This document shows, one piece after another, positions 5,197 through 23,550 of a stretch of 64,000 nt of DNA; positions within the stretch are counted from its first letter, which is position 1; each line of letters opens with the position of its first letter. The position numbers and the translations under genes were made by a program. The notes beneath the pieces are model-generated. The model was not told where the DNA came from. It worked only from the letters and a program-made list of their open reading frames with translations, and did not search any database. Source of the stretch: Leucobacter chironomi DSM 19883 (GTDB taxonomy: Bacteria; Actinomycetota; Actinomycetes; Actinomycetales; Microbacteriaceae); NCBI RefSeq assembly GCF_000421845.1, contig NZ_ATXU01000001.1, positions 310,001-374,000 of the forward strand, given 5' to 3'.

Positions 5197-5610
5197 TCAG
5201 CCCTCAGACATGCCGTCCACGATGATGTGCAGATTCGAATCGCTCAGCGCCAGCACGTGCTCCCCCGGCACCAGCGTGTCGAGCGAGTCGAGGAACTCGC
5301 GGATCTCGCGGTTGTCCTCCGCGTCGGCGACCTCGATCACGACATCGCCGACATCCGTGTTGACCGGGATGTAGGCGTACACGTAGCCGCCCTGCTCCTC
5401 CATCTGCACGTTGGTCGCGAACTCCGCACCGCCGACCGTCACAGACTCCACGTCCTGCGCCGGCCAGTTCAGCCACACCAGCGCACCGATCGCCACGGCC
5501 ACCGCCGCAGCCGCGATCCACAGCGCCCTGCGCCGGGGCGCCCGCGGGCGCTGATCGCGCGGGCCGCGGGGCTCCTCCTCCGGCTGCTCCGTCACGGCAT
5601 CTCCCTCCAT
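5197..5610 (-). CDS. Small membrane-anchored protein coupled to the giant surface protein
   Basis: About 137 residues: a charged, proline-rich cytosolic N-terminal tail (EEEPRGPRDQRPRAP), one membrane helix (ALWIAAAAVAVAIGALVWL, about residues 32-50) and an acidic outer domain of about 85 residues with strands such as YVYAYIPV and VVIEVAD. I recognise no family. The ATG at 5610 overlaps the stop of the giant gene (TGATG), so translation is coupled. A GTG at 5595 with GGAGGG 7 nt upstream is an equally good start. The pairing suggests a role in export, anchoring or display of the giant protein; this is inference. No cysteines or catalytic motif are visible. Confidence 0.75.
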   Translation of the reverse strand: MEGDAVTEQPEEEPRGPRDQRPRAPRRRALWIAAAAVAVAIGALVWLNWPAQDVESVTVGGAEFATNVQMEEQGGYVYAYIPVNTDVGDVVIEVADAEDNREIREFLDSLDTLVPGEHVLALSDSNLHIIVDGMSEG

Positions 5611-8600
5611 CACGCCTCCTCGCTTCCGCGCGCCCGACGCTGACGCCGCACGCCGATGAGCACCGCGACGGCGCCGAGCGCGAGCACGAGCACGCCGATG
5701 ACGAGGATCGACCGGGCACCGGTCAGCGCCAGAGCCGGCTCCGGCACCGCCGCGAACGGGAAGCCGAGCGTGAGATCGTCGCGGCTGACCGCCAGGTCGA
5801 CCTTGCCGTCCTCGTCGAGCTCGGAGATCTGCGCGTTCGCGGAGACCACCAGCTCGTCCTCCAGCTCGGCCGTGAGGCTGCCCCCGCTCAGGCGGTAGCC
5901 CTGCGGCACACCGACCGTGGTGCGGTACTCCCGCGGCTGCAGGAACGCTTCCGACTCCTCGTCGTAGCTCGTCGGGTGCACCTCGAACTCGTAGCGTCCC
6001 GCGTCGTCGGTGAGCTGCGTCGAGCGCCCGCGGGCGTCCTCGACGATCCGCCACTCGTCGTCGATCCGCTCCCAGAGCGTCACCCGCTGACCCGGCAGGG
6101 CCGGCTCGGAGTGCTGCTGCCGGCCATCCTCGTCGATATCGTTCCAGACTGCGCCGCCGACGATCACCTCGTGATCGTAGACCTTGAGGCCGATGTCCAT
6201 GGCGCGATCGTCGCGGACGCTCGCGATGTCGATCACACCATTGGCATGATCCGCGATCACGAAGGAGTGGGTGACACCGGTGTACCGCGTGCCGAACTCC
6301 GGTTCGGCCGCCTGAACATCGCTGTCGATCGTCGGGTCGTCGCCGACGTTGAGCGGCGACCAGACGTGGTACCCCTCGCGCTCGACGGTGACGCGGTACT
6401 CGCGCGGCGCGAGGAACCCGGGCTCGTGCTCCTCGTAGCGGGTCGGGCTCACCTCGAAGGCGTAGATCCCGTCGGCTCCGGTCACGACGCGGCTGCGCCC
6501 GGCCAGATCCTCCGTCTCCTGCCACTCGCCGTCGACCAGCTCCCACAGCACCGCCGTGCGACCGGCGACGCCGACCTCACCGGCGTCCTGCAGACCGTTG
6601 AGATCGGCATCGTCCCACACCCGGCCGCCGACGACCACCGAGGTGTCGTACACGGCGAAGCCGGCATCCGCGGTGAGCACGTCGCGCGCAGTGGCGAGGT
6701 CCACGCCGTCGGCGCCCGCATCGACGAGGCTCACCGGGTCGGTCAGCACGTAGCTGAAGGGCTTGGCGATGGCGATGCCATCGACGTCGACGGTGCTCTG
6801 GTAGAAGAACACGTTGCCGATCTCGACCAGTCGCATGTTCGCCGGAGCCTCGACGAGCACCCGGTACTCCTCGGCCTCGCGGTAGTGGGGCGAATCCTTG
6901 TCGAGATCCGCGACCTCGACCTCGAAGCGGTACCGCCCGCTGGCGTCGGTGATCGTCGACGACGAGTCGCCCGCGCCCTGCGAGGCCTCCCAGAGGCCGG
7001 TGTCGCGGTTCAGCTTGAAGAGCTTCACGGTGAGCCCGCCGATGCCGGGCTCACCCGCCGACTGCACGCCGTCGCGGTCGCGGTCATCGTAGACGGTGTC
7101 GCCGATCACCCGGACCGACTCGTGCACCAGAACTCCGCCGTCGATCAGCTCGGTGCTCTCCAAGGTGTCGTAGCGCGCGTAGCCGTTCGCGTCGGCTTCC
7201 ACGAGCACGATCTCCTCGGACACCGCCGTGTGGCGGGGATCCTGCACACCGTGATCGTAGCGCGCCGCGCCCGCCACCTCGAGGTTCGAGAACTTCGACT
7301 CGGTCGCCGCGCCGTCGACGACGGTGGGCGAGAGCGACTGACGCGAGGTCAGGTTGAACTCGACCGCGTAGACGTGCGGCGTCTGGTAGCCGGGGCTCGT
7401 GGGATCGGTGTCGGCGACCTCGGCGGTGAACTCGTAGGCGCCGTCGGCGCCGGTCCGCGTGCGATCAACGGGCACCAGCGCGCCGGCGACGACGCGGTTG
7501 AGCACCACCTCGACGCCCACGAGGCCGGGTTCGCCGGCGTCCTGGACGCCGTCGCCGTCGCGGTCGTGCCAGATCCGGTCGCCGATCGTCGCCTCCGTCT
7601 CGAGCTCGGCGAGGCCGAGGTCGACGTTCACCGCGGGCACCCCGGTGAAGGTCTCGATCGGGTGCAGCTGCCCCTGCTGCAGCTCCCCGAGGATGCGCGC
7701 ATCCGAGACCGCGGAGTTGGCGATGGTGCGCGCGTCGTGCACGAAGTCGTTGTCGCGCGCCGGATCGGACCCGACGTGCAGCTTCGTGACGTCCTGCCAG
7801 AGCGGGATCTCGGTGACCCTCACCCGGTACTCGTACGGCACCCGCTCCACCGAGTCCATGATGTGCAGATTCTCGAAGGAGTAGGCGGAGACGGCGGTGC
7901 TCCGGATCGCGGGGTCCGTGCTCTGCGCGACGGCCGGCTCGATCATGAGCCCCTGCGCATCCTGCTTCGCCTCCACCCAGGCGCCCTGGTGCAGCACCTC
8001 GAGCGTCGCCGTGTAGCGATTCTCGGCCTTCGCGGCGTCGTTCTTCACGCCGTCGCCGTCGGTGTCGATGAACACCTCGCCCGACAGCGACGAGCGCGCG
8101 TGAGCGACCAGGCCGAGATCGACGGTGTTGTCGTTGATGCCGTACATCACGCCCGTCGCCTCGTCGAAGTCGCCGATGCTGACGAGGTTGTCGCCCACCT
8201 TCGCCGTCCGGTGCATCGTGCCGTTCGGGAAGAAGTCCGAGTCGAACTCCGCGGCGTCGGCACCCGACCCCTGATGGGCGAGCGCGAAGGTGTAGCCGTC
8301 GACCAGCCGGTCGACCACCACCTGGTACCTCGTCTCGACGGGCTCGCCCGCCTCGAAGACGGCGCTCGGCACCTTCGTGAAGTAGTAGTAGCCGTCGGCG
8401 TTCGAGACCGTGGACTGGGTGAAGCCGGTGCGGGTCCACTCCCCTCCGGCCGGGCGCACGTACTGCTGGAGCGCGAGCGCCTGTCCGGCGATGCCGGGCT
8501 CGCCGTCGTCCTGGACGCCGTCGCGGTCGAGGTCGTCCCAGACGCGGTTGCCGATGACGCCCGAGGTCGACTTCTCGTAGAAGCCGATGCTCACCGACTC

Positions 8601-11600
8601 GCGGTCGGCGAAGCCGGACTCGAAGAGCCCCTCCAGATCGAACCGCAGGGTGTTCGTCTTGACGACCTTCGTGCCCTTCTCGTTCAGGCCGTCGTTATCG
8701 GTCGCCTCGGCGAAGGGATCGATGTGGTGCACGAATGGCGAGACGACCCACTCGGGGTTGAACCCGTCGTTGCGGTCGGTCACCTCGATGTAGTATTCGC
8801 GGTCGACGGGCAGCACGTCGAAGGCGTACTTGCCCTGCGCGTCGGTCACCGCGACCATCGGCTCGCCGTAGGCGTCGACGGCGGTGTCGCCGTTCATCCG
8901 CTTGAGGTAGACGTGGTAGCCGGCGATGCCGGGTTCGCCGGGTCCCGCCTGGTAGCCGTCGAGGGTGTCGATGTCCTCCGCGAACACGGTGCCGCCGACG
9001 CGCAGCGTCTGGGCGACGCCGAAGTCGAAGCTCATGCGCTCCTCGTCGCTCGTGGCCGTGTCGACCCGGGCGGCGTCGGTGATCGTCACCAGCGCCGCAT
9101 CATCGACCTCGGCGGGCACGTCGAGCTGCTCGCCGGGAGCGTAGACGGTCACCCCGGCGCGCTTGAACACCTCCGTGGTCGTGGCCGAGAACGAATCGTA
9201 CTCCTGCGGGAACTCCAGCATCACGCGGTAGTCGCCCGGCTGGATGTTCGAGAAGGTGTAGTACCCGTCGTTGCCGTGGTAGTCGGTCTCGGTGAGGGTC
9301 GTCAGGGGACCCTCAGAGCGGATCGGCTGCTGGAAGACCTCGTCGAGCACCGACTTGCCGGTGGCCTCGTCCACGACCTCCCACTGGGCGCCCACCCGGT
9401 GGATCGGGTTGCCGAGCGCGTCGACGTTGTAGCCCTTCGGCGTGAGCAGGGTGACGCGCACGCCGTTGATGCCGGGGTCGTCGATCTCACCGTCGAAGTC
9501 GAGATCCTTCGACGGTTCGAGCAGTGTGCGGCCGTTGCCGTCCACGAAGGGGTCGCCCTCGTCCTGGACGCCGTTGTAGTTCACGTCGTGCCACACGTAG
9601 TTGCCGAGGTAGACGTGATCCCGCTTCTCCGTCACGAAGGAGCCGGCCATGTTGGATTCCTGCGGGATGAAGCGGCTCACCCGCTGCGTGGCCATGAACG
9701 AGTTCCAGAGCGCGGCGCTCGGCTTGCGGTCGGCACCGTCGAACTGCTCGAGGTAGGCCGGCGCGTTCAGCGGTGCCTTCATCTGATAGGTGAACTTGAG
9801 CTTGCTCTGACCGGGCAGCTGCTCGTTCGGGTTGTTGAAGAGCACGAGCAGGGTCTTCGCCCGCTTCAGCAGCTCGGGTTCGGCCTTGAGCTCGTCGAGC
9901 GCGACGAAGTGGCGGTCGCGCACCGTCGAGGGCACGCCCGGAGTCCCGAGGGCGTCGAAGAACGACTCGCTCCCCGCGTCCGCGTGAGGCACCATCGCAG
10001 CGTCGACGATCTTGCCGCCCTGCTTCGTGAACGGGCCGACGAAGACCGTGTACTCGTTCGGCTGGTACGTCTTCTTCTCGGCGCCCTCGCGCTCCAGCTT
10101 CATGCCGTCGCCTTGCAGCCACGCCGAGTACTGCGATCCTCGCTGCAGAGTCGCGTTGCTGATCGAGGTGTCGCCAGAGAAAGGGAGCACGTCGTACAGG
10201 ATCGGATAGGGGTAGGCCCGGTCTCCGGACTCCTTCGAGTTGTCCACCGACACCTCGAACGAGAAGTCTCCGCCCTCTCGCACCGGCGTCATCTCCGGCG
10301 CGACGGTGCCGGCCCGGTTCAGGTCGGAGTAGGCGATCTTGCGCTTGCCGAAGTTGTCGTAGGTCTCGTACTGGAACAGCGTGCGCTCCGAGAACACGAG
10401 GCGGTCGTTCATCAGGCTGTTCTTGTTGAAGTCGCTGTAGTCGGTCGAGTAGCCCAGGCGGTTGCCCGAGTTCTGCTGCGAGTTCAGCGGGTAGAGCAGG
10501 CCCGTGCTGTTGGTGACCACCGCGCGCGATTTCAGATCCTCCGCGTCGGCGCCCGGCGAATAGGCGTCGACCGATCCGATGAACTCGACCACGATCTTGT
10601 CACCGGGGTAGACGTTGCCCTCGAACCAGATCGAGATGACGTTGCGATCGAAGCCCGGCCAGGGACCCGCGTAGAGATCGGTGTGCTTCAGATGCGAATC
10701 CGGGCTCGCCTCGCTGCCGTCGGCGCGCACGAGCTTCCAGGTCCAGAGGTTCTTCTCCTGCGCCGTCAGCGAGTAGCGCGAGCGGTGCTCGTCGCTCAGC
10801 GGATGGTCGGGAGTGATCTCATCGGCGGGCACGTACTTGAAGGCTCCTCCCGACTCCATCACCGTCGGCAGCTGGAAGGTCACGAACGGATCCACCAGGG
10901 TGTCCGCGGAGTACGTGTTGTCCTCGTCTCGCGACCACATCGTGTCGTCGGCGTTGATGAACTCGCCCGTGAACTTCAGGTGCGGCGACGACTTCGGCGC
11001 GATGGCCATGATGTCGGACCAGCCGAAGCGCTCCCCCTGGGGGCGCGTCGAGTCGCTGCGGTAGTAGAGCGCGTCGTACTTCACGTTGACCACCGGGCGC
11101 GACGGGGTGAGGTAGGAGCGGGTCTGGCTCTGAGCGAGCTTCGACACGCTCGTGCTGACGTAGTTGCCCCAGGCCTGCGCGGTGCCGTACACGAACAGCG
11201 TCGACTTGGCGGTCGACGAGGCGCGCATGCCCACCTTCACCGCGGCGTCGGTCACCGACGCCGGGTACTGCTCGATGCTCTGGTTGGTGGGGTCGGTCTC
11301 GAGCACCGACTGCTTCCCGTCTGCGACGGGATCGGCGTCGACGTCGAGTCGCAGCCCCTGCGGCACGAGGTAGCGCTCCGGCTGGAGCGCTTTCACCACG
11401 ACGCGGAACTTCTTGACGTCTGCGCGCTCCGCGCCCGAGTCGAGCGTCAGCCGCTCGTTGGCGAGGATCGAGCTGCCGCCCGGGTTGAGCAGCTTCCAGG
11501 CGCCGCCTTCGTATCCGTTCTCGGCGAGTTCGTGCGACACGTAGACGTAGCTGCGGAATGCATCGTCGATGTCGGTGCCGTCGGCGGCGAGGTGATCCAG

Positions 11601-14600
11601 CGTCGCCTGCGGCAGCTCCCACGCACCCGAGGTCAGGTACATCGTGGTCGTCGAGACCGGGTGACCGCTGAGGGAGACCGTGCTGTCGTTGCTCAGGTGG
11701 GTGGGGAGGATGTTCTCGACGACGAACTCCTTGAGGCCGGAGCCCGAGTTCTTCGCGTGGGTGACGAGGTATTCGATCGTGTCCGAGGAGTTGAAGTAGT
11801 TGTCGCCGGACATGCCGTTGGAGTAGGCGATGCGGGGGCGGGTGGTGTTCACGCGCACCTCGGCCCGCGGTTTCAGGATCTCCACCTGCGCCTCGTCCGC
11901 GGCGTAGCGCCCGTCGAGGTCGCCGTTGCCGTCGATGTCGAGGGACGAGCCCGCGTCCGAAGCGTAGCTGCGGTAGCCCATCGAGGCCGCGGACTGCACG
12001 ATGAAGTCCTCGGGTCGCTGGGCGGGATCCGCATCGGCCGGAATCAGGCTCGTGTCGTCCGTGATGAGCGACACGTAGGAGTCGACGATGAGGTCGTCGG
12101 TCTTCCAGACCGGATCCTCGGACACCACGTTGTCCTCATAGCCGTCTACGAGCTGCACCTCGTAGAGCAGCTTGAAGCTCTCGCCCGACTGCAGTTCGCC
12201 CCGGGTGCCGCGCTCGTTCGCGGGAGGGGTCACCAGCCACTGGATGCGCTTGCGCTCGCCCACCTCCGACACGGCGGGCGTCGCCCGCTCGACCGTGTAG
12301 CCCAGAGCCTCGAACGCGGCGCGATCGTAGATGTCGCCACCGATCTGCAGCCGCACCTCGCCCGTCGCTTCCGCGAACTCGGTGACGTGGTGCGTGACCA
12401 CGAAGCGCGAGTTGTGCACGTCACCGGCGGTCTTGATCTTCTCGTAGGGGTTGACGATCTGCTCGGGAGCGTTCGTCACCTCGGTCGTGTACCAGTACTT
12501 GCCGGCCGCGTCGACCCGGATGGTCTCGGCCTCGGGGGCGCCCGGGTAGGCGGCGACCTTCGTCACGTTCGTGATCGAGGGCTTCCGCAGGTTCAGGAGC
12601 GTGCCTCCGTAGGCGCCCGACTTCGGATGCTTGTCGGCCGCGCCCTCGGGGCTGAAGGTCTCCCCCGGCTCCGTCCACGCGACGTTGCTGTTCAGCGAGA
12701 TGTCCGTGTCGCCCTGGTAGCCCTTCGTCGCCGAGATGAGCCGCTCGGTCACCTTCAGCACACCCATGTTGCTGCTCCACGTGCTCGTGGTGTCGCGGCG
12801 GGTGCGATCGTTCGCGGTGATGGTCTGGCCGTTCGACGACTTCACGTAGGGGTAGCCGGTGGCCTGGTCCCGCTCGGTGAGCGAGGTCGGGGAGCCCGTC
12901 GTGTACCTGCCCGAGACGATCGGGTTGAACACCGGGCGCTCGGTGTTCGCGAAGGCCAGCACCTCCTGGTAGCGGGTGTCGTCCGTGTCGGGGCCGAAGG
13001 TGGGGGTGTCGATGGTCACCACGCGCGGCGAGATCACGAGCGACTGGCCGTAGGCCACGTCGGCGGCGCGATCCTCGTTGACCGTGAAGTGCAGCACGAA
13101 GCGCTTGCCGGCGGTGCTCTCCACGATCTCGACGCGCACGTCGAAGAACTCGGTGACGGGCTTGTCCACCGTCGTCGAACGGTAGGTGACGTTGTTCACG
13201 GTGGCGGTGAACTCGACGTTCTGCTGTTCGTCGAGGTCGCGATAGTAGCGGCCGTAGGAGCCGTCCTCCAGCACCGGTGCCACGCCGTAGGGCAGGGCGA
13301 TCGTGACGGTCGGCTCGAACCACGAACCGCGGGCGCCGCCGATGGTCTGCGGCGCGTAGAGCCAGATGTCCTGGTTGAGGTTGTCGCCCGAGTAGTAGTT
13401 GTAGCCGCTGTTGACCCGGTTGTACTCGCCCAGCACCTCCAGCTGCTGGTTCTCCACGGTGGAGTGGAGCGTGAACTCCTCGTACAGTTCCAGGCTGAAG
13501 TCCTGGATCGTGGGATCGATCCCGCTCGCGTACTCGTCCTTCTCGGAACTGGTCCACACGCGGAGCGTGGGCTTGCGCATCGCGATCTGGTCGCCGGTGA
13601 CGATGGCGGGCTTGCCGCTCGAAGTCGTCGTGGTGCCCTGGGCGTTCAGACCGCGAATGTACGCACCCCACGGCTCGACGGCGAAGTACGAGGTGTAGCT
13701 GCCGAAGTAGTAGGCGAGATCGTTGACCTCGATCCCCTGCGACATGCCGTCGTTCGGGTAGCGCCAGGTGTTGTTCTGGTTGATGCCGGCGCTGAAGCCC
13801 CCGTAGGTGGCGCCGTAGATCTCGAGGTACTCCTCCTCCTCGATCGAGGTGAGCGTGAACTGGTCGTGCCAGTACGAGATGTTGGCGAGGCGAGTGGCGT
13901 CCGCGGCGGTCGCGGGCGGGCGCTCCTCGTACACGCGCACGCCGATGTCGACGCGCTGGTACTTGTCGTTGGCGCTCGAACCGGGCGCGTTGAACATGCC
14001 CGTGAGCGGCGTCGCGACCTTCACCTGCACCACGTAGGGCACGCCGTCGTCGAGCGTCGCGGTCTTGTACGTTCCCGCTTCCTGGGACTGCGCCGGGGCG
14101 CGATACCCCTGGTCGTCGTCCGGGCTCTGGATCACCTCGAAGGTGCTCGGGATTGAGTTCCCGTTCCCGCCGACCGCGGTGATCCCGATCAGCTTGCCGT
14201 CCTCGTCGTACGGGGTGATGCCGAGCGGCAGGATCTCGGTGTACAGGAGACCGCTCTCGACCTCGCGGTCGCCGAGGTTCGCGGCGTGGAGCCGCACGGT
14301 GAAGCGCTCGTGGAGCTCGACGGCGTAGGTGTAGGGGTCGTCCACGTAGGGCGTGTAGCCCAGACGATGCCGGTTGTAGGAGTTGAGCGTGCCGTCGTGC
14401 TCGTAGAAGTTCGCCGCGTCGGTGCCGTAGGCCCCGCGCTTGACGGCCGGCAGCATCTCGCTCGCCCCGTACAACCAGGCACGGCTGAGCTGCATGCCGT
14501 CCTGGGCCCACAGGATGCGCTCATCGGACAGCACCGCGCCGTCGTTGACACGGCCCTTCGAGGCGAATCGGAAGTTGTCCTCGAGATCGGCCGCCGCGAA

Positions 14601-17600
14601 GGTGAGGTAGAGGTCGTTCTTGTAGCGGTCGTTGCCCGCCGCATACGCCTCGCGCAGATAGGCCGGATGCGACTTCTGCTTGTTCGCGGTCTCGTCGTAG
14701 AAGGTCGTCTGCAGGTTCGAACCCGACGAGTTGTTGGGGTGTCGGCGCTGCGCGTTGGAGCCCGGCTGCCACGAGTAGGAGTTCGAGAGGAACTCGAGAT
14801 CGGTCATCTCGTGGCCGCGGTTGCCCGTGATGCCCGCGTCGTGCAGCAGCGACGCCATGTCCATCGAGGTGTTCATCGCGGAGTTCGCGACGGGCACGTT
14901 GCTGCTGTACCAGCCGAAGAGCGGTGCGAACACGGGGGTGCCGTCGGCGTAGTCGGCCCGGGGCAGCGGAATATCGGTGCGCACCTGAGAGGGGTAGATG
15001 ATCTCGATCTGCTCGCCGCGACCCAGGGTCTCGTCCTGGAAGTCGTAGGTGAAGACCTGGAAGTCGATCTCATCGGCGGGGTTCGCGGTCGTGTTCAGCG
15101 GTTCCGCGTTCGAGAGCAGGCCCCAGCCGTTGTTGTGACCGGCCTTGTTGAAGGTCTGCGAGCCGGCGATGTCGAGCCCCGTGGCCGCCTCCACGGTCAC
15201 CTTCGGCGGGGTGAACGCCCGCGGCTGACCGGCCTCGTCGCGCACGACGATCTGCAGCGCGCCGGCGTCGATCGCCGCCTGCACGTCGAGCTCGCCGCCG
15301 TGCACGTGCTGCGAGAGTTCGGCCTGGAGGTACTCGGGCAGCTTGTCGAAGATCACGGGGTGCCGCAGCGGCGCCTTGCCGTAGGGCGTATCCGTGCTCG
15401 TGCCCTGCCTGCTTGTGTGGTTCTTCGCAGTCAGCCGGTAGAACACCTCGTCGCCCGCGACGTAGTCGGTCTTGCCGACCCGCGAGCCGGAGTAGCTCGC
15501 CGCAGCCTCTGCGGCGCTGCCGAAGGACTGGATATTGAACTCGACGGTGGGGATCGCCTTGTACACGCGCTGGCTCGCCGAGGCGAGGTAGGTGTAGGAG
15601 GCGACGGGCTGCCACGCGTCGTCCTGGTGGGTGAGCGTGGTGCGCGCCTGCGAGCTGATGACGTACGACTTGGTCGTCGCTGCCCCCGCGCTGCGCCAGT
15701 GGCCGATCCCGGGGATGGTGAACGGCTGGGCCTCGAAGGTCGCCCCGGTGGCGGGGTCCACTGCGGGCACGGTGCCGTAGGAGACCCGCAGCTCGTTGAT
15801 CGCCGCCATCTTGTGGACGTCGGGGTCGAAGTCTGCCACGGGCACCCAGTCGCTGCCGTGCTTGAAGAACACCTTCGGTTCGGCGACGCCGGTCTCGGTC
15901 GCGCCGAAGGTTCCCGTGAAGCCGGCGGGGTACTGCGGCGCGGGGAAGCCGGTGAGCTCGAATGCGCCGAGCGCGCCTGCGTCGAGCGCGATGTTCAGGT
16001 CGAGATCGGTGTTGTCGTGCAGGATCTCGTTGCGGATGTTCTTGACGGTGAGCGTCATCGTCTCGCCCGAGACGTTCTCACGGTCGAATCGGCTCTCGAT
16101 GACGAGCTGGTTCGGGTCGGAGTAGCGGTAGAGGTGGTTCTGCACCTGCCCGAGGTGCTCCGCGAAGCTGTCGCCGTCGTAGTTCTTCGTGGTGGTGGTG
16201 CCCGTGATGCGGGTGCCGTTGACGCCCGTGCTGTCGTAGCTCATGAAGTGGTGCGTGTAGGCGGGGCGCGCGTAGGCGTTCCACTGCGGGGTCTTGCCCT
16301 GCGTGGCGCCGAGGGCGGCGCCGAAGTCGTTCACCGCGGTGAACTCGACGTAGAAGAACACCGATTCGCGATCATTGAGCGTGACGTCGAACGAGACGTC
16401 GGCGCGCTTGGTGTTCGGGGTGGCGATCGTCACGTCGCCAGGTGCGACCTCGACGGCGGTGTTGGGGCCTTCGGAGAGGCGGGCCTCCCGGTTCGGGTTG
16501 CCGCGCATGAAGTCGGAGCTCGCCTGCACGTCGGAGATCCGCAGTCCGGCGGGTGCTTCGATGTGCGCGACGGGGCGGAAGACGGGAAGCGCGCCGGGCG
16601 CATCGTCGGCCGGAGCCGTGCCGCCCACGTTCCGCAGCTCGTAGAGCACCTTCGTGGTGTCGCCGACTGCCATATTGCGATAGTCGATCTGCGCGCCGGT
16701 GTCGGCGTCGTAGAAGAGGGCGGGATCCGCGGCCCGTTCGAAGTTCTGCTGCAGATGCACCGCGTGCGTCTCCATGCGTGCGACGCGCGTGTAGAGGCGG
16801 GGGGCCGGATGCCCCGACGCGCTCGACAGCGTGAGCGTGGGTTTGTCGCTGTTGTTCGCGGCGCCCGCGGAGACGGAGATCGTGTTGTACGAGGTCACCA
16901 CGGCGTTCGTGTTGAACGAGGTGTGGTACATGAGGGTCTCGTTGCCGCCCTTGGTGCGGTCGGTGACGAACGACGGCTTCGACTGCCAGCTCGGGCCACC
17001 GGTCTCCTCGTCGACCCACACGCCCGCGAGGAAGACGTCGCCGCCCTCGCGCATCTTCGTGGGCAGCGGATCGACGGAGTTCGCCCGGGTGAGGGATCCC
17101 CACAGGCCCACGGTCGCGTCCTTCGCCACGAACTTCACCGCGATGTTGTCGAGGTGCTGCTTGCGCAGCGTGGCGGTGCCGCCGAGCGAGACGGGCACGT
17201 CCTGCGTCGTGAGGGTGCCGTCGTCGAACAGCGGTTGCAGTTCGAAGACGTGGAATCCGTCGCCCCGGTCGGTGAAGTCGGCCAGGTCGAGGGTCACGTG
17301 CTTCGTGCCCTGCGAGACGACGACCGACTGCACCGACCAGTCCCCCGCGAAGATGTCGGAGGGGATCTCGACGGCGCGCGTGCGGAACGCGGCGTCGGGG
17401 CGCACGTTGATGACCGCGTCCTTGATGTCGGCTTCCGAGCTGTTCTCGATGCCGACGGCGACCCGTGTGGTGTTGGGGTCGGTGCCGTTGGCGGCGTAGT
17501 CGTAGACCTTGGTGACGCCGTCGTTGATCACCATGCTGAGCTTCGCGCCGAGCTTCGGCGTGTACCCGGTGAGGGTCGCGCTCGTGGTGCTCATGAGGGT

Positions 17601-20600
17601 CTTCGTGCCGGTGTCGTCCGGCACGCGGTACAGCTTCGTGGTGCCGCGCAGCGCCTTGTTGCCGTTCACGATGCCGCCGACGCGCACGTCGACCTCGGCG
17701 AGCGAGGCGCCGAGGGTGTCGGCGGCGGCGCCGTCGATCTCCGCGGTCCGCTCGCCGAATCCGGCCGCCTTCGAGAAGACGGCCTCGAAGCGCTTCGGGT
17801 AGCCGCCGTTCTCGCCGAACGACACGGTGAAGGTGCCGTCGCCGTCGTCGTGGATGCCGCGGGCCTGGGTGTTGTCGTAGTCGAAGCGGGCGGCCGCCGA
17901 GAGCGGTGCGTCGAAGCGGATCTCGACCGAGTCGCCCCGCTCGTCGAACGCACGCACCCCGGTCAGGTATTTCATCGTTGTCGAGTCGGCGATGGTGAAG
18001 TACTTGGCTTCGAGGTTGTAGACGGCGTCGTCCTTCGGGCTCGCCGGGTAGGTGAACTCGTAGATGAGCTCGTCGTGGAAGGAGGCCGGGTCGTACGTGC
18101 AGAGCCACTCGTCGGCTTCGGTCGCGACCGGCACGTGCAGATTCGGCCCGTGGCCCAGGCAGTACGACCGGCTGGGCTGGTAGGTGTTCACGTTCCGGAT
18201 GCTCGCGAGGTACTCGCCGATCCGCCCCATCGGGATCACCTTGTCCGGCAGCGAGGTGGTGTCGTTCGCACCGGTGCTCGTCTCGGCGACGGGGTAGCCG
18301 ACGAGCGAGTTCACCGAGTGGGTGGCCGTGCGGGTGAGCACGGTCTTCAGGCCGATACGGTCGGTCGAGGTGAGCACCGTCGGCTTCTTGCCGGTGACCG
18401 AGGAGGAGTGGAAGCGGCCCATGTACTCGACGACGTCGTTCTGGGTGCCCGCCATCTGGGGCAGGGCGTCATTGCTGTCGCGCGTGAACTGCAGCTTGAC
18501 CGCGACGCGGGACACCGGGGCCTCGGGCCGCACGTCGGCGTCCCAGGCCTCCTTGTAGTAGGGGTGGTCCTGCACACCGGCGACCGAGGGGTGGGTGACG
18601 AACAGCTGATCGTCGGCCATGTCCGGGCGAGCGGTGTTGATCCGCCAGAATCGCGATCCCTCCTGGGTGTTCTCCACCCACTCGCTGCCGGGAACCGTCT
18701 TCCAGAGCTCTTCTTTTCCGTCGACCATGCGGTAGATCTCCACCGTGTCGATGTAGGGCCGCATCTCCTCGCGGATCTTCAGGTAGTAGAGGTCGAAGTG
18801 CTCGAAGGGCAGGTTGACGTCGACGCTGACGCGCTGATTGTTGTTGTCGTAGGCGGCCGTGGGCCGGGTGATCGTGGAGGTGAAGCCGCCGAGCGACTTG
18901 TACCCCTGATCGAGCGTGTAGTCGTGGATGACGCAGGTGTAGCTGTCGCAGCTCCAAGGACGGTAGATCTCCATCGAGTAGCTGCTGCCGGCGCCCAGCC
19001 CGCGGGTGACCTGGTTGACGCCCTCGACCTTCACGCCGGTCTTGGTCTCGCGCACCGTGATCTGGTTGTTCTTCGTCGCGGTCTTCTCGACGGTGTAGGG
19101 CGGCTCCTGCGTTCCGGTGAAGGTCGCGCGGACGGTCTGGGACGAGCCCATCTCGATGTCGGCGTCGTACTCGACGATCGCGATCGTCTGCAGCCCCTGC
19201 AGGCTGAGATCCTCGCCCGTGATGATGATCTTGGCGATGTCGCCGAGGGTCACGTCGCCCGCGGCGACCTCGGCCTGCGTGAACTCCTGCTTGGCGCCCG
19301 CGGCGTCCACGAAGACGATGCGGATGTCCGAGGCGTTGTCGAGGTAGGGGCTCTGCAGCGCGATCTTCGAGAAGACCAGCGAGCCGGTCTTCGTCGCCTT
19401 GAGCATGTCGATGACGTACTCCGAGGAGGGAGAGTTCACCCCTCGTGTGTCGAGCTTGTATTCGACCCCGAACCGCGACTCGTAGCCCACGTGGGTGGTG
19501 GTCTGGGTCTTGCTCGCACCGTACACGCCCACCACGTCGACTGCCGGGACGAGCTCGTTCGGCAGCTGGATGTCGATCGTGCCGGTCGCCTGACGCTTCG
19601 TGTCCTTGTCGTAGGGCTTCGGCTGGTAGGTGCGGATCTCAGCGGTCACCGTGTGCTGCTTGTCGAGATTGTCGCCGACCCGCGCCGCGACCGACACGAA
19701 GTTCACTGCGCCGTTCGAGCTGAGCTCGTCGGTGTCGATGAACACCTTCGCGACCCCCGCGGGGAGCGCGATGCGCAGATCGCCGGTGCCGGAGTACTCG
19801 CTCAGATCGAGCTCCTCAACCTTGCCGGCCAGGGTCTCGTACTTGACCCTGACGTTCTCGGCCTGGGCGAAGAGCGCCTCCTTGAGGATCAGCTCCGCGT
19901 CCTTCAACCGCTCCGCGCCGCTGTTCAGCACGAGTGTCGTGGTCGAGTTCGCGGCCACGGTGTCGTTCACGCCGAAGAGGAAGTCGATCGTGCTCGTCGA
20001 GTTCCACGGCACCGTCGCGCGCGGGCCCTTGCCGTCGACGCTGACCTGGATGCTCGGCACGACCTCCTTCGGGTAGATCACGTTGAAGCTCACGTCGCGC
20101 TTCGCCTCGTGCTCGACCTCGGTGTAAGTGGTGTTCTCGCCGAAGTCGTCGTTGCTCGCGATCTTCTCGATGTAGACGACGGTAGCTTCGGAGTTCATCG
20201 GGCCGACCCGGTAGGGCTCGCCGAAGATCTTGATGGTCACGGGCAGTGTCTCGCCCGGGTCGACGCGGTCGGTGAGGCTGAACGACAGCTGACGGTCCCA
20301 GTCGAGCTCGTTCAGTTCGGAGAGGTCGAAGGTGAGGGTGACGAGGCCGGCGCCGTCCTCTTCGCGCTGCGCCGGCTGCAGGGTCTGGGTGACCTTCTCC
20401 CCGGTCTTCTCGTCTGTGTACGAGTAGACGATCTCGGCCTTCTCGAAGTCGGTGTCGGCCTGGTCGAACTCGTAGGTGACCCGGTCGACGGCGAAGTCGG
20501 GGTCGACACCGTAGTCGATCCGCGGGTCGAACACCGGAGCGTTCGACGCGCTCGTGAGATTCGTGATCTCGTTGTAGGTTTCGTAGCCGTAGACCACGTC

Positions 20601-21890
20601 GTTCTGCTTGGTCGTGTGCGAGAAGGTGAAGTCGTAGCTGGGCACCACGATCTCGCGCTCGACGAGCCGGGTCTTCGCCCAGTTGGCGGTCTTCGCGAAC
20701 AGCACGTTCGTGATGGCGGTGACCTTGAACTTCGTGGGCGGGCTCGGGAAGCCCTGCCGGCTCAGCGGCAGCGAGATGAGGTACTTGCGTTCGCTGGCGT
20801 CGCCTGGGGTGATCGGCTGCTTGTTCGCGCCGTGCTCGCGATCGATCGTGATCATGCCCGTGCCCGAGTAGGTGTACGGGATCTCATCGGTGAGCTCGCT
20901 CTCGCCGTCCCAGTCGGTCACGTCGTAGATGAGGATGCCGCCCTCGCCGGGCACGCCCACGAACTGCCCCGAGGTGTAGTCGCGGTCCGGGTTGGCCGTC
21001 GGCGTTCCGCCCTCGTTGTGCACCCACCGGTTGATGTCGAAGGGGATGATGCCGTTGACGCTGCTGGCGGTGGAGTCGATGTCGAAGGTCACCGAGTAGC
21101 CGTCGATGTTCGCGGCCGGGTTCTCCGAGGTGTTCGAGAGGGTGTACATGTAGTCGATGTACTGGTAGCGATCCCAGATCGGCACCAGGTCCGAGCCGCC
21201 GCCGGGCACGTACGACTCGATGCCGGTCTCCCAGTGCAGGTCGGATGAGATCACCGAGACGCGCGACTCGTCGTCGAGCTCGTGCGGGGTGCTCCACGAC
21301 GAGCCCTCGACACGGTTGAACATCTCGTACGAGACGAATCCGTTGAGTTCGAAGGTCGTGCCCTCGGGCACGCCGCCGTAGGGGCCATCCGTGCCGTCGT
21401 TGTAGGTGGTGAGGTAGATGTCGAAGGCGGGGTTCGTGCCGGCGCCGAGGTCGCCGTCGTACTCCATGACGATCGCGCCGCCCCGCATCGTCGTGTCCGA
21501 GATGACGTTCCAGCCGCCGCCGGCGCTCACGCGGCCCTGCACGCCGAGCTTGCTGGGTGCGCGATCCCGAGGAAGCACCCGGTACTCGCCGGTGGCCTCG
21601 TCGTATTCGAGCGACGGCAGGTGGATCGCCACACGCACGCCGCTCGCGGCGCCCGACGCCCAGCCCGGCACGAGGCGGTAGTTCAGTCGCGTCTCCGTGC
21701 CCGTCGAGAGCACGCTGGCCTTCGGGTTGAGGTATCCGGGCTCGCCCGCGCTCACGGTGCCGTTGAGCGTGACGCTCGGCAGTTCGTCGGCGACCGCCGC
21801 GGGGATTGCACTGACCCCGCCGAGCACATCGGTGAACGCCAAGAGCACAGCGAGTACGCCAGTGACCACCACTGAGAAGATCTTCTTCAA
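5610..21890 (-). CDS. Giant sortase-anchored surface protein with SdrD-B-like repeats
   Basis: About 5,426 residues (roughly 580 kDa), secreted and probably linked to the wall. The N terminus is a signal peptide (MKKIFSVVVTGVLAVLLAF, then cleavage after AVA near residue 35). Residues about 35-4090 are a long Thr/Asn/Asp-rich beta-type region containing tandem modules, for example two of about 165 residues near 610 and 776. Residues about 4095-5360 hold eight SdrD-B-like repeats. The C terminus has LALTG (about 5387-5391), a hydrophobic helix and an RRQRRARG tail, i.e. an LAXTG signal of the type used by class E sortases. Only four cysteines are seen. I choose the TTG at 21890, giving MKKIF with GGGG 8 nt upstream; TTG at 21896 is the alternative. 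Likely an adhesin, biofilm or fibre protein. No sortase gene is in the window. Confidence 0.88.
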   Translation of the reverse strand: MKKIFSVVVTGVLAVLLAFTDVLGGVSAIPAAVADELPSVTLNGTVSAGEPGYLNPKASVLSTGTETRLNYRLVPGWASGAASGVRVAIHLPSLEYDEATGEYRVLPRDRAPSKLGVQGRVSAGGGWNVISDTTMRGGAIVMEYDGDLGAGTNPAFDIYLTTYNDGTDGPYGGVPEGTTFELNGFVSYEMFNRVEGSSWSTPHELDDESRVSVISSDLHWETGIESYVPGGGSDLVPIWDRYQYIDYMYTLSNTSENPAANIDGYSVTFDIDSTASSVNGIIPFDINRWVHNEGGTPTANPDRDYTSGQFVGVPGEGGILIYDVTDWDGESELTDEIPYTYSGTGMITIDREHGANKQPITPGDASERKYLISLPLSRQGFPSPPTKFKVTAITNVLFAKTANWAKTRLVEREIVVPSYDFTFSHTTKQNDVVYGYETYNEITNLTSASNAPVFDPRIDYGVDPDFAVDRVTYEFDQADTDFEKAEIVYSYTDEKTGEKVTQTLQPAQREEDGAGLVTLTFDLSELNELDWDRQLSFSLTDRVDPGETLPVTIKIFGEPYRVGPMNSEATVVYIEKIASNDDFGENTTYTEVEHEAKRDVSFNVIYPKEVVPSIQVSVDGKGPRATVPWNSTSTIDFLFGVNDTVAANSTTTLVLNSGAERLKDAELILKEALFAQAENVRVKYETLAGKVEELDLSEYSGTGDLRIALPAGVAKVFIDTDELSSNGAVNFVSVAARVGDNLDKQHTVTAEIRTYQPKPYDKDTKRQATGTIDIQLPNELVPAVDVVGVYGASKTQTTTHVGYESRFGVEYKLDTRGVNSPSSEYVIDMLKATKTGSLVFSKIALQSPYLDNASDIRIVFVDAAGAKQEFTQAEVAAGDVTLGDIAKIIITGEDLSLQGLQTIAIVEYDADIEMGSSQTVRATFTGTQEPPYTVEKTATKNNQITVRETKTGVKVEGVNQVTRGLGAGSSYSMEIYRPWSCDSYTCVIHDYTLDQGYKSLGGFTSTITRPTAAYDNNNQRVSVDVNLPFEHFDLYYLKIREEMRPYIDTVEIYRMVDGKEELWKTVPGSEWVENTQEGSRFWRINTARPDMADDQLFVTHPSVAGVQDHPYYKEAWDADVRPEAPVSRVAVKLQFTRDSNDALPQMAGTQNDVVEYMGRFHSSSVTGKKPTVLTSTDRIGLKTVLTRTATHSVNSLVGYPVAETSTGANDTTSLPDKVIPMGRIGEYLASIRNVNTYQPSRSYCLGHGPNLHVPVATEADEWLCTYDPASFHDELIYEFTYPASPKDDAVYNLEAKYFTIADSTTMKYLTGVRAFDERGDSVEIRFDAPLSAAARFDYDNTQARGIHDDGDGTFTVSFGENGGYPKRFEAVFSKAAGFGERTAEIDGAAADTLGASLAEVDVRVGGIVNGNKALRGTTKLYRVPDDTGTKTLMSTTSATLTGYTPKLGAKLSMVINDGVTKVYDYAANGTDPNTTRVAVGIENSSEADIKDAVINVRPDAAFRTRAVEIPSDIFAGDWSVQSVVVSQGTKHVTLDLADFTDRGDGFHVFELQPLFDDGTLTTQDVPVSLGGTATLRKQHLDNIAVKFVAKDATVGLWGSLTRANSVDPLPTKMREGGDVFLAGVWVDEETGGPSWQSKPSFVTDRTKGGNETLMYHTSFNTNAVVTSYNTISVSAGAANNSDKPTLTLSSASGHPAPRLYTRVARMETHAVHLQQNFERAADPALFYDADTGAQIDYRNMAVGDTTKVLYELRNVGGTAPADDAPGALPVFRPVAHIEAPAGLRISDVQASSDFMRGNPNREARLSEGPNTAVEVAPGDVTIATPNTKRADVSFDVTLNDRESVFFYVEFTAVNDFGAALGATQGKTPQWNAYARPAYTHHFMSYDSTGVNGTRITGTTTTKNYDGDSFAEHLGQVQNHLYRYSDPNQLVIESRFDRENVSGETMTLTVKNIRNEILHDNTDLDLNIALDAGALGAFELTGFPAPQYPAGFTGTFGATETGVAEPKVFFKHGSDWVPVADFDPDVHKMAAINELRVSYGTVPAVDPATGATFEAQPFTIPGIGHWRSAGAATTKSYVISSQARTTLTHQDDAWQPVASYTYLASASQRVYKAIPTVEFNIQSFGSAAEAAASYSGSRVGKTDYVAGDEVFYRLTAKNHTSRQGTSTDTPYGKAPLRHPVIFDKLPEYLQAELSQHVHGGELDVQAAIDAGALQIVVRDEAGQPRAFTPPKVTVEAATGLDIAGSQTFNKAGHNNGWGLLSNAEPLNTTANPADEIDFQVFTYDFQDETLGRGEQIEIIYPSQVRTDIPLPRADYADGTPVFAPLFGWYSSNVPVANSAMNTSMDMASLLHDAGITGNRGHEMTDLEFLSNSYSWQPGSNAQRRHPNNSSGSNLQTTFYDETANKQKSHPAYLREAYAAGNDRYKNDLYLTFAAADLEDNFRFASKGRVNDGAVLSDERILWAQDGMQLSRAWLYGASEMLPAVKRGAYGTDAANFYEHDGTLNSYNRHRLGYTPYVDDPYTYAVELHERFTVRLHAANLGDREVESGLLYTEILPLGITPYDEDGKLIGITAVGGNGNSIPSTFEVIQSPDDDQGYRAPAQSQEAGTYKTATLDDGVPYVVQVKVATPLTGMFNAPGSSANDKYQRVDIGVRVYEERPPATAADATRLANISYWHDQFTLTSIEEEEYLEIYGATYGGFSAGINQNNTWRYPNDGMSQGIEVNDLAYYFGSYTSYFAVEPWGAYIRGLNAQGTTTTSSGKPAIVTGDQIAMRKPTLRVWTSSEKDEYASGIDPTIQDFSLELYEEFTLHSTVENQQLEVLGEYNRVNSGYNYYSGDNLNQDIWLYAPQTIGGARGSWFEPTVTIALPYGVAPVLEDGSYGRYYRDLDEQQNVEFTATVNNVTYRSTTVDKPVTEFFDVRVEIVESTAGKRFVLHFTVNEDRAADVAYGQSLVISPRVVTIDTPTFGPDTDDTRYQEVLAFANTERPVFNPIVSGRYTTGSPTSLTERDQATGYPYVKSSNGQTITANDRTRRDTTSTWSSNMGVLKVTERLISATKGYQGDTDISLNSNVAWTEPGETFSPEGAADKHPKSGAYGGTLLNLRKPSITNVTKVAAYPGAPEAETIRVDAAGKYWYTTEVTNAPEQIVNPYEKIKTAGDVHNSRFVVTHHVTEFAEATGEVRLQIGGDIYDRAAFEALGYTVERATPAVSEVGERKRIQWLVTPPANERGTRGELQSGESFKLLYEVQLVDGYEDNVVSEDPVWKTDDLIVDSYVSLITDDTSLIPADADPAQRPEDFIVQSAASMGYRSYASDAGSSLDIDGNGDLDGRYAADEAQVEILKPRAEVRVNTTRPRIAYSNGMSGDNYFNSSDTIEYLVTHAKNSGSGLKEFVVENILPTHLSNDSTVSLSGHPVSTTTMYLTSGAWELPQATLDHLAADGTDIDDAFRSYVYVSHELAENGYEGGAWKLLNPGGSSILANERLTLDSGAERADVKKFRVVVKALQPERYLVPQGLRLDVDADPVADGKQSVLETDPTNQSIEQYPASVTDAAVKVGMRASSTAKSTLFVYGTAQAWGNYVSTSVSKLAQSQTRSYLTPSRPVVNVKYDALYYRSDSTRPQGERFGWSDIMAIAPKSSPHLKFTGEFINADDTMWSRDEDNTYSADTLVDPFVTFQLPTVMESGGAFKYVPADEITPDHPLSDEHRSRYSLTAQEKNLWTWKLVRADGSEASPDSHLKHTDLYAGPWPGFDRNVISIWFEGNVYPGDKIVVEFIGSVDAYSPGADAEDLKSRAVVTNSTGLLYPLNSQQNSGNRLGYSTDYSDFNKNSLMNDRLVFSERTLFQYETYDNFGKRKIAYSDLNRAGTVAPEMTPVREGGDFSFEVSVDNSKESGDRAYPYPILYDVLPFSGDTSISNATLQRGSQYSAWLQGDGMKLEREGAEKKTYQPNEYTVFVGPFTKQGGKIVDAAMVPHADAGSESFFDALGTPGVPSTVRDRHFVALDELKAEPELLKRAKTLLVLFNNPNEQLPGQSKLKFTYQMKAPLNAPAYLEQFDGADRKPSAALWNSFMATQRVSRFIPQESNMAGSFVTEKRDHVYLGNYVWHDVNYNGVQDEGDPFVDGNGRTLLEPSKDLDFDGEIDDPGINGVRVTLLTPKGYNVDALGNPIHRVGAQWEVVDEATGKSVLDEVFQQPIRSEGPLTTLTETDYHGNDGYYTFSNIQPGDYRVMLEFPQEYDSFSATTTEVFKRAGVTVYAPGEQLDVPAEVDDAALVTITDAARVDTATSDEERMSFDFGVAQTLRVGGTVFAEDIDTLDGYQAGPGEPGIAGYHVYLKRMNGDTAVDAYGEPMVAVTDAQGKYAFDVLPVDREYYIEVTDRNDGFNPEWVVSPFVHHIDPFAEATDNDGLNEKGTKVVKTNTLRFDLEGLFESGFADRESVSIGFYEKSTSGVIGNRVWDDLDRDGVQDDGEPGIAGQALALQQYVRPAGGEWTRTGFTQSTVSNADGYYYFTKVPSAVFEAGEPVETRYQVVVDRLVDGYTFALAHQGSGADAAEFDSDFFPNGTMHRTAKVGDNLVSIGDFDEATGVMYGINDNTVDLGLVAHARSSLSGEVFIDTDGDGVKNDAAKAENRYTATLEVLHQGAWVEAKQDAQGLMIEPAVAQSTDPAIRSTAVSAYSFENLHIMDSVERVPYEYRVRVTEIPLWQDVTKLHVGSDPARDNDFVHDARTIANSAVSDARILGELQQGQLHPIETFTGVPAVNVDLGLAELETEATIGDRIWHDRDGDGVQDAGEPGLVGVEVVLNRVVAGALVPVDRTRTGADGAYEFTAEVADTDPTSPGYQTPHVYAVEFNLTSRQSLSPTVVDGAATESKFSNLEVAGAARYDHGVQDPRHTAVSEEIVLVEADANGYARYDTLESTELIDGGVLVHESVRVIGDTVYDDRDRDGVQSAGEPGIGGLTVKLFKLNRDTGLWEASQGAGDSSSTITDASGRYRFEVEVADLDKDSPHYREAEEYRVLVEAPANMRLVEIGNVFFYQSTVDVDGIAIAKPFSYVLTDPVSLVDAGADGVDLATARDVLTADAGFAVYDTSVVVGGRVWDDADLNGLQDAGEVGVAGRTAVLWELVDGEWQETEDLAGRSRVVTGADGIYAFEVSPTRYEEHEPGFLAPREYRVTVEREGYHVWSPLNVGDDPTIDSDVQAAEPEFGTRYTGVTHSFVIADHANGVIDIASVRDDRAMDIGLKVYDHEVIVGGAVWNDIDEDGRQQHSEPALPGQRVTLWERIDDEWRIVEDARGRSTQLTDDAGRYEFEVHPTSYDEESEAFLQPREYRTTVGVPQGYRLSGGSLTAELEDELVVSANAQISELDEDGKVDLAVSRDDLTLGFPFAAVPEPALALTGARSILVIGVLVLALGAVAVLIGVRRQRRARGSEEA
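5613..5732 (-). other. C-terminal cell-wall sorting signal (LALTG, membrane helix, positive tail)
   Basis: The LALTG codons are at 5718-5732. A hydrophobic stretch (ILVIGVLVLALGAVAVLIGV) and the basic tail RRQRRARG follow. LAXTG rather than LPXTG is the pattern recognised by sortase E in high-GC actinobacteria. Confidence 0.82.
5830..9611 (-). repeat. Array of eight SdrD-B-like domains in the giant protein
   Basis: Eight divergent protein repeats of about 145-200 residues. Their openings lie near nucleotides 9605, 8995, 8552, 8080, 7580, 7100, 6623 and 6151. Most open with VW(D/H/N)D followed by a D-x-D-x-D-G loop such as DRDGDGVQD and then GEPGI.G, the SdrD-B signature. Domains 2 and 4 are degenerate (EDIDTLDGYQ; IDTDGDGVKN). 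DNA identity between units is low, so this is an old duplication. Confidence 0.85.
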
Positions 21891-22112
21891 TTGCAATTCC
21901 CCCGGCTGCAGGCAGCCCCCTATAACAGCCGGGTCGAAGAGATCCAGCTGAGATCACGATCGGCGCCGCCATGCCCGGGGCGCCTGACGAAATCGTCGTT
22001 GTCATGCCAACTGTCACCGCGATTTCGCTGCACTCATCCTATGAGAGAATTCAGCGCTCCACCAACCGATTCGTCGGCGTCCGCTCTGGCCCTCGATGCC
22101 CGACCCTGTAGG

Positions 22113-22135
22113 GCGCCTCGCCGCGAGCGAGGCGC
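22113..22135. terminator. 9-bp stem hairpin
   Basis: GCGCCTCGC, loop CGCGA, GCGAGGCGC; perfect stem, no U tract on either strand. Possibly a terminator or structured mRNA element. Confidence 0.35.
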
Positions 22136-22257
22136 GCGATGCGAAGCCTCTCGGCGGGCTGTCATTTTCCCGCCACGGCCTCTCCACCGCTTCCAGGCAC
22201 ATTTTGTCGCCCGTCGGGCGGCGGTGACGCAGGCCGGCGAACCGACTCCACGTCTGA

Positions 22258-22278
22258 GGCCGCGAGCCACTCGCGGCC
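22258..22278. terminator. 9-bp stem hairpin downstream of ychF
   Basis: GGCCGCGAG, loop CCA, CTCGCGGCC; perfect stem about 200 nt past the ychF stop codon. No U tract. Confidence 0.35.
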
Positions 22279-22476
22279 TACGCGACCTTCTCAGCTCCCG
22301 GGGATTCGTCTCCGTCGGGGCATACCTCTTCCAGCAGATGGGCGAGCCGAGCCCGGTCTGCGCGCAGCCCCCGCCCGAACGAGAAGCCGATCACCGGCTC
22401 AAGCACCCGTGCGATCCCACGCAGTCGCACCTCCAAGCACGCCCCAGCTCGAGGATCTCATCTACGCTGATTTCTC

Positions 22477-23550
22477 CTAGACGTTGAACCGCCACTCGCA
22501 GACGTCGCCGTCCTGCATCACGTAGTCCTTGCCCTCCATGCGCGCCTTGCCCTTCGCACGGGCCTCGGCCACCGATCCGCACTCCACGAGGTCTTCGAAG
22601 GAGATGATCTCGCCCTTGATGAAGCCCTTCTCGAAGTCGGTGTGGATCGCGCCGGCAGCCTGGGGGGCGGTCGCACCCTTCTTGATGGTCCAGGCGCGGG
22701 CCTCCTTGGGGCCGGCGGTGAGGTAGGTCTGCAGGCCGAGGGTATCGAAGCCGACGCGGGCGAGCTGATCCAGCCCGCTCTCCTCCTGGCCGATGGAGGC
22801 CAGCAGTTCGGCGGCGTCTTCGGCGTCGAGTTCGATGAGCTCGCTCTCGATCTTGGCGTCGAGGAAGATCGCCTTTGCGGGCGCGACGAGCGCGGCGAGC
22901 TCGTCGAGGCGGGCGCGATCCTGCAGCACGGTCTCGTCGACGTTGAAGACGTAGAGGAACGGCTTCGCGGTGAGCAGCCCGAGCTCCTTGATCGGCTCGA
23001 GGTCGATGCCGGCGTGCGAGAGCACCTGACCGTCGTCGAGCGCGGCGCGGGCGGCCTTCGCGGTCTCGACGACCGAGGCGTCGATCTTCTTGTTCTTGAG
23101 CTCCTTCTCAAGGCGCACGATGGCCTTGTCGAGGGTCTGCATGTCGGCGATGATCAGCTCGGTGTTGATCGTCTCCATGTCGCTCGCCGGGTCGACGGCG
23201 CCGTCGACGTGCACCACGTCGGGGTCGCTGAAGCCGCGCACTACCTGCGCGATCGCGTCGGCCTCGCGGATGTTCGCGAGGAACTGGTTGCCGAGGCCTT
23301 CGCCCTCGCTCGCGCCGCGCACGATGCCGGCGATGTCGACGAAGCTGACGGGTGCGGGCAGGATCCGCTCACTGCCGAAGATCTCGGCGAGCTTGTCGAG
23401 GCGCGCGTCGGGCAGGTTCACCACGCCCACGTTCGGCTCGATGGTGGCGAACGGATAGTTCGCGGCGAGCGCGTCGTTCTGGGTGAGTGCGTTGAAGAGG
23501 GTGGACTTGCCCACGTTGGGGAGTCCCACGATGCCGATTGTCAGAGCCAC
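22477..23550 (-). CDS. ychF: Redox-regulated ATPase YchF (Obg-family)
   Basis: A 357-residue Obg-family P-loop protein that prefers ATP, binds ribosomes and affects stress responses. The G1 loop is GLPNVGKSTLFNALT at residues 6-20, the switch region has VDIAGIVRGASEGEGLGNQFL, the altered G4 is NVDE, and the C terminus is a TGS domain (AIHTDFEKGFIKGEII, then DYVMQDGDVCEWRFNV). Length and end match the family. The start is a GTG at 23550 with a TAGGAT box ending 8 nt upstream. The adjacency to the ispH/xseAB block resembles M. tuberculosis Rv1112-Rv1107c. Confidence 0.96.
   Translation of the reverse strand: MALTIGIVGLPNVGKSTLFNALTQNDALAANYPFATIEPNVGVVNLPDARLDKLAEIFGSERILPAPVSFVDIAGIVRGASEGEGLGNQFLANIREADAIAQVVRGFSDPDVVHVDGAVDPASDMETINTELIIADMQTLDKAIVRLEKELKNKKIDASVVETAKAARAALDDGQVLSHAGIDLEPIKELGLLTAKPFLYVFNVDETVLQDRARLDELAALVAPAKAIFLDAKIESELIELDAEDAAELLASIGQEESGLDQLARVGFDTLGLQTYLTAGPKEARAWTIKKGATAPQAAGAIHTDFEKGFIKGEIISFEDLVECGSVAEARAKGKARMEGKDYVMQDGDVCEWRFNV

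Follow-up and report, generated by a model that had tools for sequence, protein, structure and literature searches.

The window analysed here, a 64,000-nucleotide stretch of one contig of Leucobacter chironomi DSM 19883, carries on its minus strand a gene for a giant putative surface protein (5610..21890) and, directly 3' of it, a gene for a partner protein of 137 amino acids (5200..5610); all coordinates of window features below refer to the minus strand. Positions 5610-21896 form one open frame without interruption on this strand, and the plus-strand translation of the same interval is broken by stops. The frame reaches a TTG at 21896, and the TTG at 21890 taken as the start gives 5,426 amino acids plus the stop codon. 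By hydropathy, values above 1.6 are found in an N-terminal stretch from residue 1, in a C-terminal stretch from residue 5385 and in an isolated window at residue 4790. The N-terminal stretch belongs to a signal peptide region of about residues 1-36 (LKKIF...AVAD; 21783..21890), of which the start is kept in relatives and the cleavage site was placed by eye. A promoter-like site was not found in a scan of 21850-22520, and an Rfam scan of the whole window gave zero matches.

The signal peptide region is followed by a scaffold body of about residues 36-4070 (9681..21785), in which no family was matched up to approximately residue 3,927. Two parts of the body are particularly well conserved. Residues 36-450 (20541..21785) are 76-81% identical to four relatives and 62% identical to the more distant copy in genome G055, and the corresponding values for residues 3601-4070 (9681..11090), which precede the stalk, are 71-78% and 61%. 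The middle of the protein and the stalk are more variable in the aligned relatives. The stalk itself (5916..9608, roughly residues 4072-5340) consists of eight stretches matched by Pfam SdrD_B (253.3 bits; cut-off 29.7), with DxDxDG-type loops at residues 4102, 4129, 4453, 4609, 4776, 5094 and 5251. At the C terminus, the sorting motif LALTG (residues 5387-5391; 5718..5732) is followed by a hydrophobic stretch and an RRQRR tail (5613..5717).

This arrangement of LALTG, hydrophobic stretch and RRQRR is the pattern of a class E sortase substrate; class E sortases use LAXTG (PMC5148588). The general LPXTG model TIGR01167 of NCBIfam scores 12.7 bits on the giant, below its cut-off of 15.9. Zero sortases are encoded within the window. 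Pfam Sortase matches just two proteins of this genome, both encoded on contigs other than that of the window; one is of class E (contig C7; 198.6 bits, cut-off 160) and the other of class C (contig C2; 181.8 bits, cut-off 160). The same genome thus encodes a sortase of the class that the motif calls for. Across ten aligned full-length copies of the giant, the motif is LAxTG in eight and LVNTG in two (G014 and G055). A reading made earlier from the sequence only had proposed, without naming a strand, a single gene of about 5,426 residues with a signal peptide, eight SdrD-B-like repeats, an LALTG sorting signal and no sortase nearby, all of which holds. It had named as counter-evidence a genome lacking any class E sortase gene, and this genome has one. 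We also observed other candidate surface proteins. At G000:C7:147357-151905, two adjoining frames (1,316 and 1,271 codons) both have an LPXTG-type end above the cut-off and both contain a single SdrD_B match. Near the class C sortase (L012:6311-8218, minus strand) lies a gene for a 635-residue protein whose collagen-like repeat scores 51.1 bits with Pfam Collagen.

Matches to the giant are present in 10 of 54 Leucobacter genomes including that of the window, and nine of the 54 have a single full-length frame of 4,903-5,571 codons from stop to stop. A frame of 5,426 codons with 72% identity is also present in G114, a genome from another genus of the same family. Most copies are 65-68% identical to that of the window, and the pair G014/G055 is 51% identical and lacks a stretch near residues 601-750 as well as two SdrD_B-sized stretches near residues 4660-5080. 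Over the whole length, the ratio of nonsynonymous to synonymous substitution rates (dN/dS) is 0.135, 0.084 and 0.088 in three close pairs, with values of 0.05-0.15 for each section. Two distant pairs, with ratios of 0.36 and 0.33, were left out of the claim on selection because they are highly diverged at synonymous sites. The close pairs show purifying selection on the whole length of the giant. The full-length frames in nine Leucobacter genomes and G114, together with the low dN/dS, confirm that the gene is real and not a product of chance. A decaying or misassembled gene without present function could be imagined from one of the ten Leucobacter copies, that of G046, which is broken and shortened, with longest frames of 1,670 and 1,048 codons and a gap from ychF to the partner gene of about 10 kb versus 17 kb. 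The nine other Leucobacter copies and that of G114 are full length, and with the dN/dS of the close pairs they refute this explanation in the main, leaving it a negligible probability. At the G046 locus (L034, G046:C1:728901-748900), the partner gene is kept beside the broken giant.

The ATG of the partner gene overlaps the TGA of the giant gene by one base. The partner has one hydrophobic span (approximately residues 29-47) and a conserved C-terminal part, and it adjoins the giant at all nine places where it was found. In the genus it is present in 8 of 10 genomes with the giant and in 0 of 44 without it (Fisher p = 4e-8, a figure that ignores kinship and linkage). It is absent from the two giant-bearing genomes whose motif is LVNTG, G014 and G055. 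A search of 299 genomes from the family gave matches at E <= 1e-38 in only three, all with the giant, and five further genomes with matches at 1e-4 to 8e-4 were put down to chance. No known family was accepted for the partner. The best NCBIfam match, an anti-sigma factor model covering the N terminus and the span, reaches 27.2 bits versus a cut-off of 100 and was not accepted, and three weak matches in a sequence search of PDB (E 0.07-0.63) were judged to be chance similarities over the hydrophobic span. Kinship of the partner with segments of the giant was not found (best probability 2.2).

Upstream of the giant gene lies ychF (22477..23550), an outside neighbour that occupies this position in 7 of 11 genomes, the window counted. 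The glyoxalase-like and mycothiol-type neighbours known from the window come after the giant in G014 and G055, and one flank of the locus is therefore common. The gene after the giant in G050 and G114 resembles an M13 peptidase, as judged by eye only. Nine proteins scanned from window positions 28000-64000 belong to ordinary metabolism and transport, among them ATP-binding cassette (ABC) transporter parts, an amidohydrolase, a fumarase-type lyase, an acyl-CoA dehydrogenase and a Clp ATPase.

The body of the giant has relatives outside the class. A profile of residues 36-600 searched over 396 genomes of the phylum retrieved the window genome and three genomes of a family from another class, here called f42, with matched frames of 9,590-24,922 codons. 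Profiles of Leucobacter body segments gave 73 matches to six f42 frames and none to reversed or shuffled copies of them, and the order was kept in 37 of 37 independent matches. In profile-profile comparison, about 2,411 of 4,100 residues were matched at a probability of 50 or more, and the matches are colinear with one exception, residues 169-377, which match a second time in an apparent f42 duplicate. Eight f42 frames were fetched; in six of them the C terminus is visible, and it always carries LP[KQ]T[GS] and a hydrophobic tail. SdrD_B scored 127.5 bits in the one frame checked. Two partner matches at E 0.05-0.08 in the fetched f42 stretches, where flanks are short, were counted as none.

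With a profile of residues 3755-4065 (A6), 20 of 138 genomes in f42, the family of G788, were matched, 18 of them strongly (E < 1e-80) and two at approximately 1e-5. The strong matches comprise 41 frames of 3,860-34,927 codons, 16 of which exceed 20,000. One is a single frame of 30,639 codons that has both LPQTSD and an export signal and lies on a 2.26-Mb contig (L113-L118, G1234:C1:102353-194269), and another is a single frame of 34,927 codons with LPQTSD and a start without a clear export signal (L106-L112, G1233:C39:9969-114749). Because homologous wall-anchored frames in the phylum reach 34,927 residues, the Leucobacter giant is not among the largest wall proteins of actinobacteria, contrary to what had been supposed. 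By sequence comparison, it is one of the short representatives of a giant family whose frames extend beyond 30,000 residues. Other profiles, searched over the order (396 genomes) and the class (296 genomes), returned the window genome only, and the scaffold thus seems confined, within Actinomycetes, to Leucobacter and the genus of G114 among the sampled genomes. A transfer of the scaffold between classes is likely. Both the coupled partner gene and the scaffold shared with f42 were overlooked in the earlier reading.

What the body folds into was approached in several ways. For the 3,929 residues encoded by 10110-21896, there were zero Pfam or NCBIfam families at E <= 1 and zero PHROG families at E <= 0.1, and a sequence search of PDB with profiles of two body parts gave 0 matches. 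Profile comparison of 200-residue segments detected internal repeats in the SdrD_B part only, apart from one weak pair (residues 601-760 and 771-932; 68% probability). AlphaFold models of two body pieces of 915 and 921 residues were weak, with a mean predicted local distance difference test (pLDDT) score of 46.9 and 31.9, respectively, and the structure search was made with the better one (915 residues). Its residues 379-573 (approximately amino acids 414-608 of the giant) resemble an immunoglobulin (Ig)-like beta-sandwich of the adhesin/pilin type, but integrin and cohesin domains score equally well in this weak model. The earlier assignment of about 4,000 residues to beta-type modules is thus confirmed only in part, with this segment as the one that looks the type. 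We rejected the idea that conserved cysteines act as disulphide staples because none of the four cysteines is retained in most relatives.

Predation and phage defence had also been among the functions considered, with the giant making contact to prey or phage. Its size alone speaks for such a role. For the partner protein and for each of three giant pieces, PADLOC gave 0 families at E <= 0.1, leaving phage defence unsupported, and defence, lytic or toxin domains were not found in the giant by Pfam and NCBIfam. We therefore regard prey or phage contact as very improbable. A plasmid and phage search with one 561-residue segment of the giant gave zero matches.

We propose, with moderate confidence, that the giant acts in contact or adhesion as a fibrillar, wall-linked protein which is anchored by a class E sortase and assisted at the membrane by its partner. 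The protein would be exported via Sec, and LALTG would be the site at which the class E sortase joins it to the cell wall. Beside the wall, the eight SdrD_B domains may form a calcium-stiffened stalk, past which the 4,000-residue scaffold would extend, placing the conserved N-terminal part at the tip, where it could touch a surface, matrix or other cells. The 137-residue one-span protein might aid the giant at the membrane in export, folding or hand-over to the sortase. The proposal draws on the export signal, sorting motif, SdrD_B stretches, conservation, genomic class E sortase, operon-like overlap, co-occurrence and colinear scaffold, from which we infer wall linkage, calcium binding, geometry, adhesion and the role of the partner. 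Regarding the hallmarks of fibrillar adhesins, repeated stalk domains are present, and an adhesive domain of known kind was not found by Pfam, NCBIfam, PDB sequence search or the search with the better structure model.

The conservation of the outer N-terminal part bears on what the tip may bind. A variable tip was not seen; instead, this part is the most conserved, as expected for self-binding or for another invariant target. The giant could accordingly be a homophilic or structural surface layer that pairs with itself across cells in aggregation or biofilm, or that coats the cell. The conserved tip would also fit an invariant glycan target, and we consider such a self-pairing or coating layer possible but unlikely. 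Adhesion is the best fit and self-association comes second. A more specialized form of adhesion would have nematodes or other animals as its target. Certain strains of Leucobacter are reported to stick to worm tails and to kill through worm-star formation; in Leucobacter Verde1, surface adhesion glues the nematodes together (PMC3898767). This makes nematode binding conceivable, although nothing ties the giant gene to it. The portion of that report examined names no adhesin, its strains were not identified among the compared genomes, and L. luti and L. salsicius carry the giant too. A nematode role is accordingly quite improbable.

Beyond adhesion by a single protein, a bolder proposal can be formulated, which we consider rather unlikely. 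The giant wall proteins in two classes of Actinomycetota, about 5,000 residues long at one extreme and about 30,000 at the other, would form one ancient family. Its members would share a single colinear frame, largely free of repeats, and would lengthen through insertions between points of this frame that stay fixed. The 137-residue protein would be a membrane factor dedicated to the LAxTG branch for export or hand-over to sortase E. If this is true, a sortase E assistant specific to giant substrates would represent a new type of part. Giant bacterial surface proteins have mostly been recorded genome by genome. Across two classes, the common scaffold connects proteins about 5,000 residues long with others of about 30,000, and the short Leucobacter version may therefore be a convenient model in which to study the longer proteins. 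How a very long chain is exported and anchored can be approached through the coupled membrane protein, a possible class E sortase assistant.

Giant sortase-anchored proteins were already known, and among the literature matches listed, the Leucobacter branch, the cross-class scaffold and the coupled partner are unreported; these matches include neither a published Leucobacter giant nor a link to the giants of Coriobacteriia. Staphylococcus SdrD, a member of the microbial surface components recognizing adhesive matrix molecules (MSCRAMM), likewise has SdrD_B repeats (PF17210) ahead of a C-terminal sorting signal. It shares the B domains only, and its whole-protein model NF012181 of NCBIfam reaches 93 bits on the giant versus a cut-off of 2,500. 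Chaplins of Streptomyces are small hydrophobic proteins, unlike the giant. As LAXTG proteins of class E sortases, they resemble it in the motif and in coming from genomes that encode such an enzyme (PMC5148588). Giant1-5 of Apilactobacillus kunkeei are also very large extracellular proteins of 3,000-8,000 residues, reported to have N-terminal beta-solenoids and likened here to the Leucobacter giant by description only (PMC12863079).

The closest comparison is with Adlercreutzia equolifaciens (Eggerthellaceae, Coriobacteriia), in which the giant genes AEQU_0093 (74,766 nucleotides) and AEQU_1251 (74,247 nucleotides) were reported with LPXTG (PMC3778203), and giant genes of 37,689 and 61,890 bp were reported in subspecies celatus (PMC8142583). 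The homologous frame in G894 of f42 has 24,922 codons, or 74,766 nucleotides, the same length as AEQU_0093, with which it was compared by length alone; given this agreement, f42 is probably Eggerthellaceae. The second G894 frame (12,742 amino acids) is unlike AEQU_1251 in size. Like the Leucobacter giant, the reported Adlercreutzia proteins are giant sortase-anchored putative surface proteins of Actinomycetota, from which the Leucobacter protein differs in its length of 5.4 thousand amino acids, its LAxTG motif and its partner gene.
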